Origin: Microbulbifer sediminum
GTDB taxonomy: Bacteria > Pseudomonadota > Gammaproteobacteria > Pseudomonadales > Cellvibrionaceae
Direction of reading: 5' to 3'
DNA: 64,000 nucleotides
Assembly: GCF_021729035.1 (NCBI RefSeq)
Contig: NZ_JAJSAP010000002.1
Coordinates: 310,001 to 374,000 of the forward strand
How positions within the stretch are numbered: position 1 is the stretch's first letter; every line of letters begins with the position of its first letter. Shown one piece after another: positions 59,695-64,000 of the stretch. A program made the position numbers and the translations under genes. The notes beneath the pieces are model-generated. The model did not search any database, had not been told where the DNA came from, and was given only the letters and a program-made list of their open reading frames with translations.

Positions 59695-59732
59695 CACCTG
59701 AACAACAAGCCTGCGACCTCAGTGTCTGGCCT

Positions 59733-59748
59733 TTGCGCAACGCAAGGA
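59733..59748 (+). promoter_or_regulatory. Hairpin abutting the rne ribosome binding site
   Basis: TTGCG, loop CAA, CGCAA, immediately followed by GGA. The 3' arm overlaps the AA of the AAGGA ribosome site (59744-59748), 12 nt before ATG 59761. Folding would partly hide the ribosome site. Confidence 0.45.
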
Positions 59749-59760
59749 TATAAGACACGC

Positions 59761-62700
59761 ATGAAGAGAATGCTGATTAACGCAACTCAACCTGAAGAGT
59801 TGCGTGTAGCTCTGGTAGACGGCCAGTGGCTCTACGACCTGGATATCGAAAACCGCACCCGCCAGCAGAAAAAAGCCAACATTTACAAGGGCAAGATCAC
59901 TCGCGTCGAGCCTTCCCTGGAAGCTGCCTTCGTCGACTACGGCGAGGAACGACACGGTTTCCTTCCACTGAAAGAAATCTCCAGGGAATATTTCGTTAAA
60001 CAGCCCAAGGACATCGAAGGCCGCATCAAGATCAAGGATGTGGTCAAGGAAGGTATGGAAGTTATTGTCCAGGTGGACAAAGAGGAGCGCGGCAACAAGG
60101 GTGCCGCCCTCACCACTTTCATCAGCCTCGCGGGTCGCTACCTCGTCCTGATGCCTAACAACCCCCGCGCCGGCGGTATCTCCCGTCGTATTGAGGGCGA
60201 TGATCGCTCCGAGCTGCGCGATGCCCTTTCCAGCGTGGAAATCCCCTCCGGCATGGGCATTATTGTCCGTACCGCCGGCGTTGGCCGTAGCGGTGAGGAG
60301 CTCCAGTGGGACCTGAATTACCTGCTGCAGCTCTGGGATGCCATCAAGAAAGAGGCCGACGACTCCAAGGCGCCGCACTTCCTGTTCCAGGAAAGTAACG
60401 TCATCATCCGCGCAATCCGTGACTACATGCGCGACGACATCGGTGAAGTCATTGTCGATGACAAGGGCGCCTACCAGCTGGCCGCCGAGTTCGCACGCCA
60501 GGTGATGCCCCACTACGCCAACAAGGTGAAGTACTACGAAGACGCGATTCCGCTCTTCAACCGCTACCAGATCGAAAGCCAGATCGAGACGGCCTTCGAG
60601 CGCGAGGTCAAGTTACCCTCCGGCGGTTCCATCGTCATCGACGTCACAGAGGCCCTGATCTCCATCGACATCAACTCCTCCCGTGCCACCAAGGGTGGGG
60701 ATATCGAGGAGACAGCGCGCTCCATCAACCTGGAGGCCGCGGACGAAATCGCCCGCCAGCTGCGCCTGCGCGATATGGGCGGCCTGGTGGTCATCGACTT
60801 TATCGATATGCAGAACAAGTCGAACCAGCGCGAAGTGGAAAAGCGCATGGAAAAGGCCCTCGGCATGGACCGGGCCCGAGTACAGATCGGCCGCATTTCC
60901 CGCTTCGGCCTGCTGGAGATGTCCCGGCAGCGCCTGCGCCCATCCCTCGGGGAAACCACCTTCCGGGTCTGCCCCCGCTGTAGCGGCCAGGGCACCATTC
61001 GCGGCACCAAGTCGCTGGCACTGTCCATCCTGCGCCTGGTAGAGGAAGAGGCGAAGAAAGAGCGCAGTGCGGAAATCCGGGCCATCTGCCCGGTCAATGT
61101 CGCCACCTACCTGCTCAACGAGAAGCGCAAGGCGATTTCCCAGATCGAGTCGCGCAACAATACCCGTGTAGTGGTGGTGCCGAGCGCCGATCTGGAAACC
61201 CCGCATTTCGAGGTTCAACGGCTGCGGGATGACGACACAGCGACCCTCGAAACCTCCTACAAGATTGCAGGCACCCTCGAGGAGGCCCCGGACCAGGAAG
61301 AGGAGCCGATGCGGGCACCCGCCCAGCCCGCAGTGCAGCAGATCGCCCACACAGCACCTGCACCTACTCCCACTGAAAAGCCGGCGGCACCCGCTGCGGC
61401 GAAGGCCAAGCCCGGCCTGATCTCACGCCTGATCAGCGCCATCTCTGCCCTATTCTCCGGTGAGGAAGAAGAGGCCAAGACCAAGAAACACAAGAAAACC
61501 AAAGGCCGTGGCAAGAACTACCAGAAGCGCGGTCGCGGGGGCAGCCAGCGCGGCAGCCGCGGTGGCCGCACCAATCGGGGCGGTCGACGTCGTGAGGAAT
61601 CCCGTCGCGAGGAGAAACCAGCCGAAAAACAGGCGGACAAGCGAGAGGAGAAGCGCCAGGAAAAACGCGAGGAAAAGCGTGAAGACAAGGCCACTACCGC
61701 CAAGCGCGATGAAGGCCAGGGCGGCGAGCGCCCACAGCGTCGCCGCCGCCGTCGTCGCGGTGGTGAGGGACGTCGCCGTCGCGAGGAAGGCCAGCAGCCA
61801 ACTGCGGAAAAGGTAGCTTCCGGGGAAGTTGCCGAAACCTCCGGTGATGCCGCTGAGACCGAGGGCCAGGAGCGCCCGGCGCGTCGCCCAGGCAACGTCC
61901 GCGGCCGTCCGCAGCCCCGTCGTCGCGGTCGCCGCGGTGAGAATAAAGCGGCGGCTGCCGTAGCCCAGAACCAGGAAGAGCTGGATCGTGAGGTCAATGA
62001 GGCCATCGACGAAGCCGAGGGTGAGGCCAAGAAATCTGCCGACAAGCAACAGCAGGCCCCTGTAGAGGCTGCTGCCGGCCAGAAGCCGGAGGCCGCTACA
62101 GAAGGCAAGCGTGAGCCGAAGGCAGAGCGCCAGCCCCGCAAGCCGAAGGAAGCCAAGGCGGAAGAGACCACCAAGCCCGTGAGCGACAAGGGCAAAGGTA
62201 AAGCCGAGGGCGAGGGCGAGGCCGCGGACGAAAAGGCTAAGCGGAAACCCCGTCGCCAGCGGGAAGCACGCAAGGATTCCGGCGAGGAGGCGGAGCGCTC
62301 CGCGAAAGCCGCTGAGCGCAGTGGCGACCGGGACCAGCAGCGCCCGGAGGAGGCCCCGGCGCCGAGCCCGGCAGCACCGGAGCCGGAAACTGCAGGTGCA
62401 CCCGGCAAGGCTCCGGACGCCGAGAGCCAGGTCACCACTGCCGCTGTCTCTACTGATGAGGAAGCCGGCGAAGCGCCACGTACCGATACTGTGAAAGCCG
62501 AAGCGCCTGAAGCAGTCGCAACGGCACCTGCGCAGCCCGAGCCTGAGGAAGCTGCCGAATCGGCGGCAGAAGCCCAGCAACCGGAACCGGAAGCAGTAGC
62601 TGAAGCTGCTGAAGCACCGGCACCCGCAGCTGCAGAGCAGCCAGAGGAGCCGGCTGCTGAAGCACCCGCGGCAGCCCCGGTTGCAGCTGAGCCGAAGCAG

Positions 62701-62946
62701 GCAGCCCCGACCGGTGCTACGCCCGCTCGAGCCAGCAACGATCCGCGAGTGAACCCGAAACCGCTGGGTGCACTGGCGATCGTCACCGAGCAGCGCGATA
62801 TGGGACTCAACCAGCCGCTGGACACGTCCACCCCGGCTGCGATTGAGCATAAGCCCCGCGCCATCACGCGTCCGGCCAACGATCCACGCGTCGCGCGTGA
62901 GGCGAACCAGGCCAACGACGAGGACGGCTCCGCCCAGGCGAGCTGA
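59761..62946 (+). CDS. rne: Ribonuclease E
   Basis: RNase E is the main endonuclease of mRNA decay and rRNA/tRNA processing and the scaffold of the degradosome. The 1061 residues start [20 protein letters not shown]. The catalytic half (1-510) keeps E. coli numbering: S1 domain about 35-125, D303 and D346 as magnesium ligands, and the zinc link C404-PR-C407. The C-terminal half is disordered: a lysine/arginine- and glycine-rich RNA-binding stretch (about 580-640) with repeated REEKR units, long acidic/alanine-proline repeats, and two NDPR motifs at 993-996 and 1040-1043 like those in Pseudomonas RNase E. An upstream in-frame ATG (59722) is not used. Confidence 0.98.
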
Positions 62947-62953
62947 CCAGACA

Positions 62954-62980
62954 GGAGGCCCGTGCCCGCCACGGGCCTCC
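62954..62980 (+). terminator. Strong hairpin after rne
   Basis: GGAGGCCCGTG, loop CCCGC, CACGGGCCTCC: an 11-bp perfect stem 8 bp after the rne stop. It lacks a T run, so it may be a stabilising 3' hairpin or Rho-associated rather than an intrinsic terminator. Confidence 0.55.
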
Positions 62981-63059
62981 CACGTCACTCGCACAGGCAC
63001 CGAAATTGTTTAAAAATACAGCTAACCTATTGAACTGCCTAAAAAAATTATCCACGCCC

Positions 63060-63087
63060 TTGTACCCGACAACCACGTCGGTATAAT
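63060..63087 (+). promoter_or_regulatory. Promoter of tRNA-Ser
   Basis: TTGTAC (63060-63065) and consensus TATAAT (63082-63087) with a 16-bp spacer, ending 14 bp before the tRNA. A GCGCC stretch follows the -10 box, like the GC discriminator of stringently controlled stable-RNA promoters. Confidence 0.8.
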
Positions 63088-63101
63088 GCGCCGGACAATC
63101 T

Positions 63102-63189
63102 GGTGGGGTGGCTGAGTGGTCGAAAGCGGCGGTCTTGAAAACCGTTGACTGTAACAGGTCCCAGGGTTCGAATCCCTGCCCCACCGCCA
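63102..63189 (+). tRNA. tRNA-Ser(UGA)
   Basis: An 88-nt class II tRNA. The acceptor stem GGTGGGG pairs with CCCCACC (63179-63185), followed by discriminator G and encoded CCA (63187-63189). The anticodon loop CTTGAAA gives anticodon TGA at 63136-63138, reading UCA and other UCN serine codons. The long variable arm, expected for serine, and GGTTCGAAT in the T arm are present. A terminator follows directly. Confidence 0.97.
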
Positions 63190-63196
63190 TACAATA

Positions 63197-63224
63197 CAGC
63201 CCGGCTTTATGCCGGGCTTTTTTG
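63197..63224 (+). terminator. Terminator after tRNA-Ser
   Basis: AGCCCGGC / GCCGGGCT with loop TTTAT and six T, 8 bp after the tRNA. A second version of this hairpin occurs 131 bp downstream within the repeated unit. Confidence 0.9.
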
Positions 63225-63330
63225 TATGGTGCTACGGTGGATTTGGATAAGAACCCCGTTCGACCCGGAGGGCGACGCCCGGAGAGCCGCGAGCATAGCG
63301 AAGCGCATCCCCCACCGCCATATAAGGAAA

Positions 63331-63356
63331 CCCGGCTCCACGCCGGCTTTTTTTAT
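63331..63356 (+). terminator. Second terminator-like hairpin inside the tRNA-tail repeat
   Basis: CCGGC, loop TCCAC, GCCGG, then C and seven T. It is the diverged copy of the tRNA-Ser terminator. Confidence 0.75.
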
Positions 63357-63520
63357 ATGGGGTTGGGACAGATTTGGATAAGAACCCCGTTCGAGCCGGA
63401 GCTGGCACAGCCAGCGGAGACCAGCGAGCGCAGCGGAGCTACCCGGAGGGCGTCAGCCCGGAGAGCCGCGAGCGCAGCGAAGCGCATCCCTGCCCCTTGC
63501 CCCACTATCCGACGATCTGG

Positions 63521-63721
63521 AAATGAGGTCGGTGTGCCTAAAGGCTTCCCCGGGACCCCATCCCTGTCCAGTGTGGGCGTAAATAAATCCTGCGACGTTC
63601 TTTGCCTTGTATCAGGCTGCCCTGGCCGAGGACCGGCACGAAGGGCAATTCCCTCCACTACACTAGGCCTCAAGCCGGGATTAGCCGCCGACACCGAAAA
63701 AGTGCCCAGGGAGCGCCTTTA
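63521..63721. other. Spacer before the ycaC-like gene
   Basis: About 200 bp after the tRNA-tail repeat. It should hold the promoter of the ycaC-like gene; I see no strong consensus, no gene and no further repeat copy. Confidence 0.4.
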
Positions 63722-64000
63722 ATGAGCACCAAACCTTATATTCGCCTCGAGAAAGACAACGCCGCGGTACTATTGGTCGACCACCAGACCGGTCTGTGCT
63801 CATTGGTCCGGGATATAGAACCTGACAAGTTCAAGAATAATGTCCTGGCGCTGACAGACCTCGCCAAGTACTTCCAGCTGCCCACTATCCTCACCACCAG
63901 CTTTGAAGACGGGCCCAATGGCCCCCTGATGCCTGAAATCAAAGACAGCTTTCCCGATGCCCCCTATATTGCCCGGCCAGGGCAGATCAATGCCTGGGAC
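63722..64000 (+). CDS. ycaC: YcaC-like isochorismatase-family hydrolase (3' end missing)
   Basis: The first 93 residues of a cysteine hydrolase of the isochorismatase superfamily. The sequence KPYIRLEKDNAAVLLVDHQT followed by SLVRDIEPDKFKNNVLAL and LPTILTTSFEDGPNGPLMPE follows E. coli YcaC almost residue for residue, with the catalytic aspartate in VDHQTG. The catalytic cysteine lies beyond the window. AGGGAG precedes the ATG at a good distance. YcaC forms octameric rings; its substrate is not known. Confidence 0.93.
   Translation, partial: MSTKPYIRLEKDNAAVLLVDHQTGLCSLVRDIEPDKFKNNVLALTDLAKYFQLPTILTTSFEDGPNGPLMPEIKDSFPDAPYIARPGQINAWD

Follow-up and report, generated by a model that had tools for sequence, protein, structure and literature searches.

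The window, a stretch of 64,000 nucleotides from Microbulbifer sediminum, contains close to its end a tRNA-Ser(UGA) gene that is followed by worn copies of its own 3' tail, by terminator-like hairpins and by a repeated core. The features of this locus are as follows.

63102..63189, + strand: tRNA-Ser(UGA) gene (ARAGORN; Rfam tRNA, 62 bits)
63172-63189, + strand: last 18 bases of tRNA-Ser(UGA), the tail repeated downstream, ATCCCTGCCCCACCGCCA (sequence reading)
63198..63224, + strand: T1, first terminator-like hairpin (63198-63218) with T-run (terminator scan)
63224..63257, + strand: left arm of module 1, read as a decayed inverted copy of the tRNA tail, with the end GGATAAGAACCCC (sequence; relatives compared)
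63258..63310, + strand: core of module 1 (GTTCGA...ATCC), two hairpins between linkers (core model R1, 63.8 bits, E = 1.8e-11, this core being itself among the 24 elements from which R1 was built)
63307..63320, + strand: second tail copy with CCA end, four bases shorter than the tRNA tail (sequence and repeat comparison)
63332..63357, + strand: T2, second terminator-like hairpin (63332-63346) with T-run (terminator scan)
63353..63388, + strand: left arm of module 2, read as a decayed inverted tail copy (sequence; arm-tail fit)
63389..63444, + strand: core of module 2 (R1, 59.1 bits)
63436..63489, + strand: third core, fused onto module 2, its left arm lost (R1, 50.8 bits)
63486..63496, + strand: third tail copy, decayed (sequence and repeat comparison)

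The R1 matches were obtained at C8:373258, 373389 and 373436, which correspond to window positions 63258, 63389 and 63436. The first-pass annotation had described a 131-bp unit repeating the tail of the tRNA and its terminator, with a decayed third tail. Downstream repeats of this kind are real: the 92-nt copies at 63179-63270 and 63310-63401 are 79% identical and spaced 131 bp apart, the GATTTGGATAAGAACCCCG block occurs at 63240 and 63371, and the decayed third tail is present. The second unit is not a single copy, however, since it is made of two fused cores, which corrects the simple repeat picture; the third core is 92% identical to core 1 over ~50 bp. The tails in the window are worn, with 14 and then 11 bases remaining, and exact tail copies are present at orthologous loci (e.g. 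L006, L007, L008, L009 and L013). Terminator-like sites on both strands of 62900-63750 numbered 5, versus a shuffle mean of 1.1.

When the 142-bp unit 63179-63320 was compared with its own genome, long matches were confined to the window locus, and seven other matches covered at most 47 of its bases. A search for the exact window block among the genome contigs gave no match. Just upstream of the tRNA lies a long ORF (59722-62946), which we take to resemble ribonuclease E. An ORF with a similar end, as judged by eye, also precedes the tRNA in genome G037.

Anatomy and covariation of the module

The usual order of parts is the parent tail, a terminator in some cases, a left arm, a GAAC-loop-GTTC hairpin, GTTCGA, the core, and (T/C)AATCC joined to the 3' tail of the parent. 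By tRNA numbering, GTTCGA and ATCC are the T-loop of the parent cut in two. Comparison of the elements showed a copied piece that begins in the T-loop, with the break between GTTCGA and ATCC. One core type (GAGCCGGAG-hairpin-CGGAGACCAGCGAGC-hairpin-GCGAAGC) was shown in the same way to stand behind different tRNAs in Microbulbifer, with tail copies that vary with the parent; this core is a type of its own and differs from the E. coli tRNA-linked repeats (TLRs). Behind tRNA-Ser(GGA) at L029, L073 and L094, a second core type (GACCA...GAGTTGGGACCGAGGC...GTTTGAGTCC) was observed in tandem with the Microbulbifer core.

In many elements, though not in all, the left arm repeats the T-arm and acceptor strand in inverted orientation, clearly so in L077 (Arg-CCG) and L014 (Ser-GGA). 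Of 89 distinct arm-tail readings, 24 were dropped (tandem tRNAs, nested longer readings, L179 and one false start), leaving 65, from which 49 elements, one per locus and tRNA, were taken for a permutation test. The fit of left arms to their own tails was 394.5, versus a mean of 346.0 and a maximum of 366.0 with permuted tails (0 of 2000), a result that is inflated by related sequences in the set. Counted by parent, the left arm fitted its own tail strictly best in 13/22 Ser-TGA, 6/10 Ser-GGA, 5/6 Gln-CTG, 2/5 Arg-CCG and 1/2 Ser-GCT elements. For Gln-TTG the figure was 1/12, with none among the seven from Microbulbifer, and there was no such case among the five Tyr elements (four of them E. 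coli rtT), the two Arg-ACG elements or the one Glu element. For the left arm of window module 2, two of the 15 other tails fit equally well or better.

Two alignments were used for covariation, and in both the counts are inflated by the relatedness of the sequences. Alignment A1, the source of model R1, holds 24 Microbulbifer elements chosen by a pattern that fixes the linkers; because the linkers were the selection pattern, their conservation in A1 is not independent evidence. The hairpin arms were free of that pattern, and the helices were drawn by hand. In the A1 core helices 88.6% of cells were paired versus 63.3% in shuffles, and 39 cells were changed on both sides versus 11.4, values reached by 0 of 500 shuffles in each case. 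With the partner shifted by 1-3 columns as a control, 24-42% of cells were paired. Helix 1 had 95.0% of cells paired and changes on both sides in four of its five pairs, and helix 2 had 79.3% of cells paired. The number of A1 pairs with double changes (6, reached by 112 of 500 shuffles) and that of further pair types (11, reached by 94 of 500) were unexceptional.

Alignment A2, from which model R2 was made, holds 18 gamma-wide elements from 22 readings, near-identical copies and one short reading having been dropped and L130 extended by three bases. Its members were mostly selected by GGATGAGAA...GTTCGA, so those columns are conserved by construction. The drawn A2 structure had 90.5% of cells paired versus 82.7% in shuffles, and 34 double changes versus 13.3 (0/500); pairs with double changes (90 of 500 shuffles) and further pair types (331 of 500) were unexceptional. 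RNAalifold, unaided, predicted 12 pairs in A2. The core hairpins covary, as the first-pass annotation had proposed to check.

Closure of the tail onto the left arm was predicted in the minimum-energy folds of modules 1 and 2 and of rtT, in the centroid only for L123, and in neither for L077. Fold energies compared with shuffles gave z values of -1.28 for module 1, -2.42 for module 2, -2.02 for rtT, -3.28 for L123 and -1.23 for L077.

Distribution behind stable-RNA genes

With 63225-63310 as the DNA query, matches were obtained in 17 of 48 Microbulbifer genomes, and the matching loci held tRNA-Ser(TGA) or tRNA-Ser(GGA) in all cases except L012 and L026. The exact core pattern was found in 24 sequence stretches, all Microbulbifer, in a search that may omit records of the window's own genome. 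With R1, 44 of the 48 genomes were matched at E ≤0.001. Among the 30 R1 loci fetched, some of which also belong to the 24 elements that built the model, 29 lay ~75-781 bp behind a same-strand tRNA (nine Ser-GGA, seven Gln-TTG, six Arg-CCG, four Ser-TGA, two Ser-GCT and one Pro-CGG); in the thirtieth (L199) the match starts 69 bases from the contig end. The association with tRNA genes is not due to chance. The E-values of R1, and those of R2 given below, are rough because the calibration was short.

The survey behind tRNA genes in the window's own and related genomes found modules behind many kinds of tRNA. In its own genome R1 matched in nine places (three Ser-TGA, two Arg-CCG, two Gln and one each of Ser-GGA and Ser-GCT); the eight listed and a further one, presumably the L058 match, all lie behind a tRNA. 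At E ≤0.01, R2 added Asp twice, Arg-ACG and Phe, and the two models together placed a module behind 10 of 45 tRNA genes, the scan having been supplied with 31 of 42 loci, which the other 11 overlap. A strict tail-copy test on 39 regions of this genome, from which the window's own locus was omitted through de-duplication, gave four regions at a shuffle p ≤0.01 (Gln twice, Arg-CCG and Ser-GCT). Positives were few, since a short tail is all that many modules retain, and the weakness of this test is the reason for relying on R1 and R2.

Two further repeats were observed in the same genome. Behind tRNA-Asn(GTT), L050 carries a different repeat pair with GCCCAGTTGGGTGAGGCAAG and terminator-like hairpins of its own, which went unmatched by R1 (up to E 0.1) and by R2 (up to E 1). 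L224 (C2:109954-110230) holds two gamma-type modules near a contig end, the remaining upstream sequence being without a tRNA; its sequence resembles the modules behind tRNA-Asp.

At 43 orthologous tRNA-Ser(TGA) loci, one of which (L154) has 192 bases downstream only, a module was found in 20 (18 with R1 and two more with R2 at E ≤0.01). The other 23 gave no model match, and more worn remnants were visible by eye in some. These model calls superseded rule-based ones, in which 10 loci had a tail copy with TTCGA and 17 had that or GGATRAG. Because presence is patchy, a function of the modules stays a proposal. Relatives carried intact copies with covarying hairpins at the orthologous locus, whereas the first-pass annotation had named, as an outcome that would speak against it, relatives with nothing but random degenerate copies. 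In the Microbulbifer strain YPW16, which has intact copies, several modules stand behind tRNA-Ser(UGA). At L161 and L162 (genomes G024 and G035), a gamma-wide core stands in place of the Microbulbifer core at the orthologous locus, and this arrangement would fit an exchange of the core with the ends staying local. Five matches at a spacing of 154 bp were found in G015.

At one orthologous locus, L175 (G037:C5:7000-16500), ~7.5 kb separate the tRNA-Ser from a second copy of its tail. The stretch holds Phage_integrase, Resolvase and GIY-YIG genes, and the modules stand beyond it; G037 was counted among the 23 loci without a model match at the tRNA. In G020, modules lie close to the tRNA and one lies ~8.8 kb away; the stretch between holds ORFs, and no island is claimed.

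Beyond the genus, the pattern GGATGAGAAN{3,16}GTTCGA was found in 52 of 369 gammaproteobacterial genomes, versus 10 for the reversed control. Thirty of these loci were fetched: in 16 a module follows a tRNA gene (Gln, Arg, Tyr, Ser or Glu), L110 held a module at the contig edge, and 13 were without a tRNA and chance-like by eye. Across the phylum, R2 matched 80 of 398 genomes at E ≤1e-4, 48 of them outside the class and 40 of these in one family. Among 30 fetched R2 loci, 23 lie 34-264 bp behind a same-strand tRNA (seven Ser-GGA, four Gln-CTG, three Lys, two Ser-GCT, two Tyr, and single cases of Arg, Glu, Ser-TGA, Asp and Asn). Five R2 loci outside the class (L226, L228, L229, L234 and L235) have modules of the same architecture behind tmRNA genes, in L226 as three tandem copies, and two (L224 and L227) have little upstream sequence before the contig end.

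Relation to known repeats of E. coli

The name tRNA-linked repeats is used for a class that includes rtT, was first described in 1978 and is said to have no known function (PMC8144298); the name recurs in PMC9245011. E. coli K-12 has 22 TLRs at ten loci, one to five at each, which share 18-19 bp with the 3' end of their parent (PMC8144298). A role in the stringent response, once ascribed to rtT, was retracted (PMC8144298). The first-pass annotation knew of no such description for tRNA-Ser(UGA); the arrangement is not specific to that tRNA, and the E. coli class already had its name. Its comparison with rtT was borne out, the E. coli rtT repeats having, by inspection, the same order of parts and the same T-loop break.

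Three copies stand behind tyrV and one in the spacer at K-12 tyrT/tyrV. In every copy a GGATGAGAA or GGGTGAGAA arm is followed by GGTTCG, hairpins and TAATCC, and then by the 18-base tail. The corresponding parts of rtT are thus a GGATGAGAA-type left arm, GGTTCG, hairpins and AATCC. The window modules share with the E. coli TLRs, rtT included, the position behind the gene, the one to few copies, a 3' end from the parent tail (worn in the window) and the T-loop break; they stand in a tRNA operon directly behind the gene, as TLRs do, and two copies with a fused third lie within the TLR range of one to five. Unlike the E. coli TLRs, the window has a terminator before each module. The later parts of the module are also present in the elements downstream of argQ, argZ, argV and the rrnB 5S gene; no such element was seen in the 330 bases behind proM or leuV.

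RrA, RrB and RrF of the E. coli rRNA operons provide a second comparison. The rrA, rrB and rrF elements lie between T1 and T2; their products arise by read-through, exist in forms of ~173 and 115 nt, and have Hfq and CsrA as interaction partners. At rrnB, RNase E cutting at the tail copy was proposed, and rrB homologues were reported from at least 31 species, all Enterobacteriales (PMC8144298). Like the window modules, they stand between two terminators and end in a copy of the parent tail; they differ in having 5S rRNA as parent and in their reported binding of CsrA and Hfq (PMC8144298), the window loops being without predicted GGA. The word "inverted" does not occur in the main text of PMC8144298. 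In Actinobacillus, two RNAs of the RtT family gave Northern signals and are described as lying upstream of tRNA genes (PMC4986893).

R2, built without rrB and the arg elements, gave E 1.9e-8 for rrB; for the arg elements its E-values were 1.9e-4, 0.0068 and 0.044. On the window core it gave E 0.25 only, and on the orthologues L132 and L143 E 0.0016 and 0.0022. Since R2 barely sees the window core, the tie between the Microbulbifer type and the others rests mainly on shared architecture. The Rfam RtT family (RF00391), which has the same order of parts as the window modules, scored 132.9-137.5 bits on four E. coli copies and reached its cut-off of 45 in L112, L110, L102 and L119 (4 of 16 other sources) and, at 58.7, in L227. 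A search of the window at Rfam gathering thresholds returned the tRNA only, and at the window locus (L001) RtT found nothing up to E 1. In 14 Microbulbifer sources RtT gave none at the cut-off, the best being 27.8 bits behind tRNA-Ser(GCT); with all 14 below the cut-off, such elements may go unannotated. What is new here is the occurrence of the TLR architecture across Gammaproteobacteria and in at least one further class, with tmRNA genes among the parents. A literature search of titles and abstract openings gave no pointer to such repeats in Microbulbifer or behind tmRNA.

Possible roles of the modules

The reading that we put forward, and to which we give an even chance, is that the modules are tRNA-linked repeats in the sense of RNA-forming units behind stable-RNA genes, released through read-through and trimming of the tail. 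RNA polymerase would pass T1 at times, and in the extra transcript the copied tail would pair with the left arm to form an end that resembles the acceptor and T-stem. The enzymes of tRNA 3' maturation might then also cut at the copied tail and release a small RNA, while T2 would stop the remaining transcript. Tandem copies would be gained and lost by recombination between identical tails. The T1-module-T2 layout of the window matches that of rrnB, and the intact orthologous copies, the position behind tRNA genes, the paired core helices, the fit of left arms to their own tails and the likeness to the E. coli elements also speak for this reading. Against such a mechanism stand the terminator-like hairpin before the first module and, in the window, the worn tails, decayed arms, fused cores and the small fold-energy advantage of module 1. 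The 23 of 43 orthologous loci without a model match, the exceptions to the inverted arm and the unexceptional covariation measures count against it as well.

In a quite possible, if not probable, alternative, the modules are passive DNA repeats kept by recombination between tails and by template-switch hairpin repair, and no RNA product matters. Patchy presence at a single locus (20/43) and worn copies in the window keep this explanation strong, and the regularly spaced matches of G015 and the position of T1 ahead of the module also agree with it. Among the fetched loci, however, the association with the 3' ends of stable RNAs is near-exclusive, which a free DNA repeat would not need, and the architecture is common to distant groups.

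It is improbable that the modules act as Csr/Rsm decoys, whose GGA loops would titrate CsrA in parallel with stable-RNA transcription, a role proposed for E. coli RrB. RrB binds CsrA (PMC8144298), across the 18 gamma-type elements GGA occurs in 21 of the 77 loops predicted (0.273; mean 0.144 and maximum 0.255 in 100 shuffle sets), and 11 of these elements have a GGA loop (shuffle mean 5.8, maximum 10). By contrast, the window modules have 0 predicted GGA loops, such loops are also absent from 7 of those 18 elements, E. coli rtT included, and the other 19 E. coli TLRs scored below 0.01 as CsrA binders (PMC8144298). A very unlikely explanation is attachment-site debris, that is, tail copies remaining from elements that integrate by way of the T-arm, or spare decoy sites: the ~7.5-kb Phage_integrase stretch of G037, between the tRNA tail and its other copy, accords with it, but there the tRNA was used and not a module, and integration leaves the inverted arm, the shared core and the covariation unexplained. 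Inspection by eye showed no integrase-like ORF in the final 4 kb of the window, and, also by eye, a similar ORF comes after the modules in L017.

The reading of the modules as RNA units released by read-through can be extended, although we consider the extension rather unlikely. All modules would then be one old family of RNA elements of the Proteobacteria, standing behind tRNA, tmRNA and 5S genes, spreading by exchange of the core while the local direct and inverted tails are rebuilt, trimmed by the maturation of the host RNA, and giving small RNAs whose output follows stable-RNA synthesis. Judging from the tmRNA cases, the common factor may be a 3' end with T-arm and acceptor, the E. coli 5S element being an exception, and such a factor would point to 3'-end maturation. 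If the class is as wide as suggested, comparative data can separate function from drift, and the traits open to such testing are the break in the T-loop, the tail specific to the parent, the inversion of the arm and the covariation of the hairpins.
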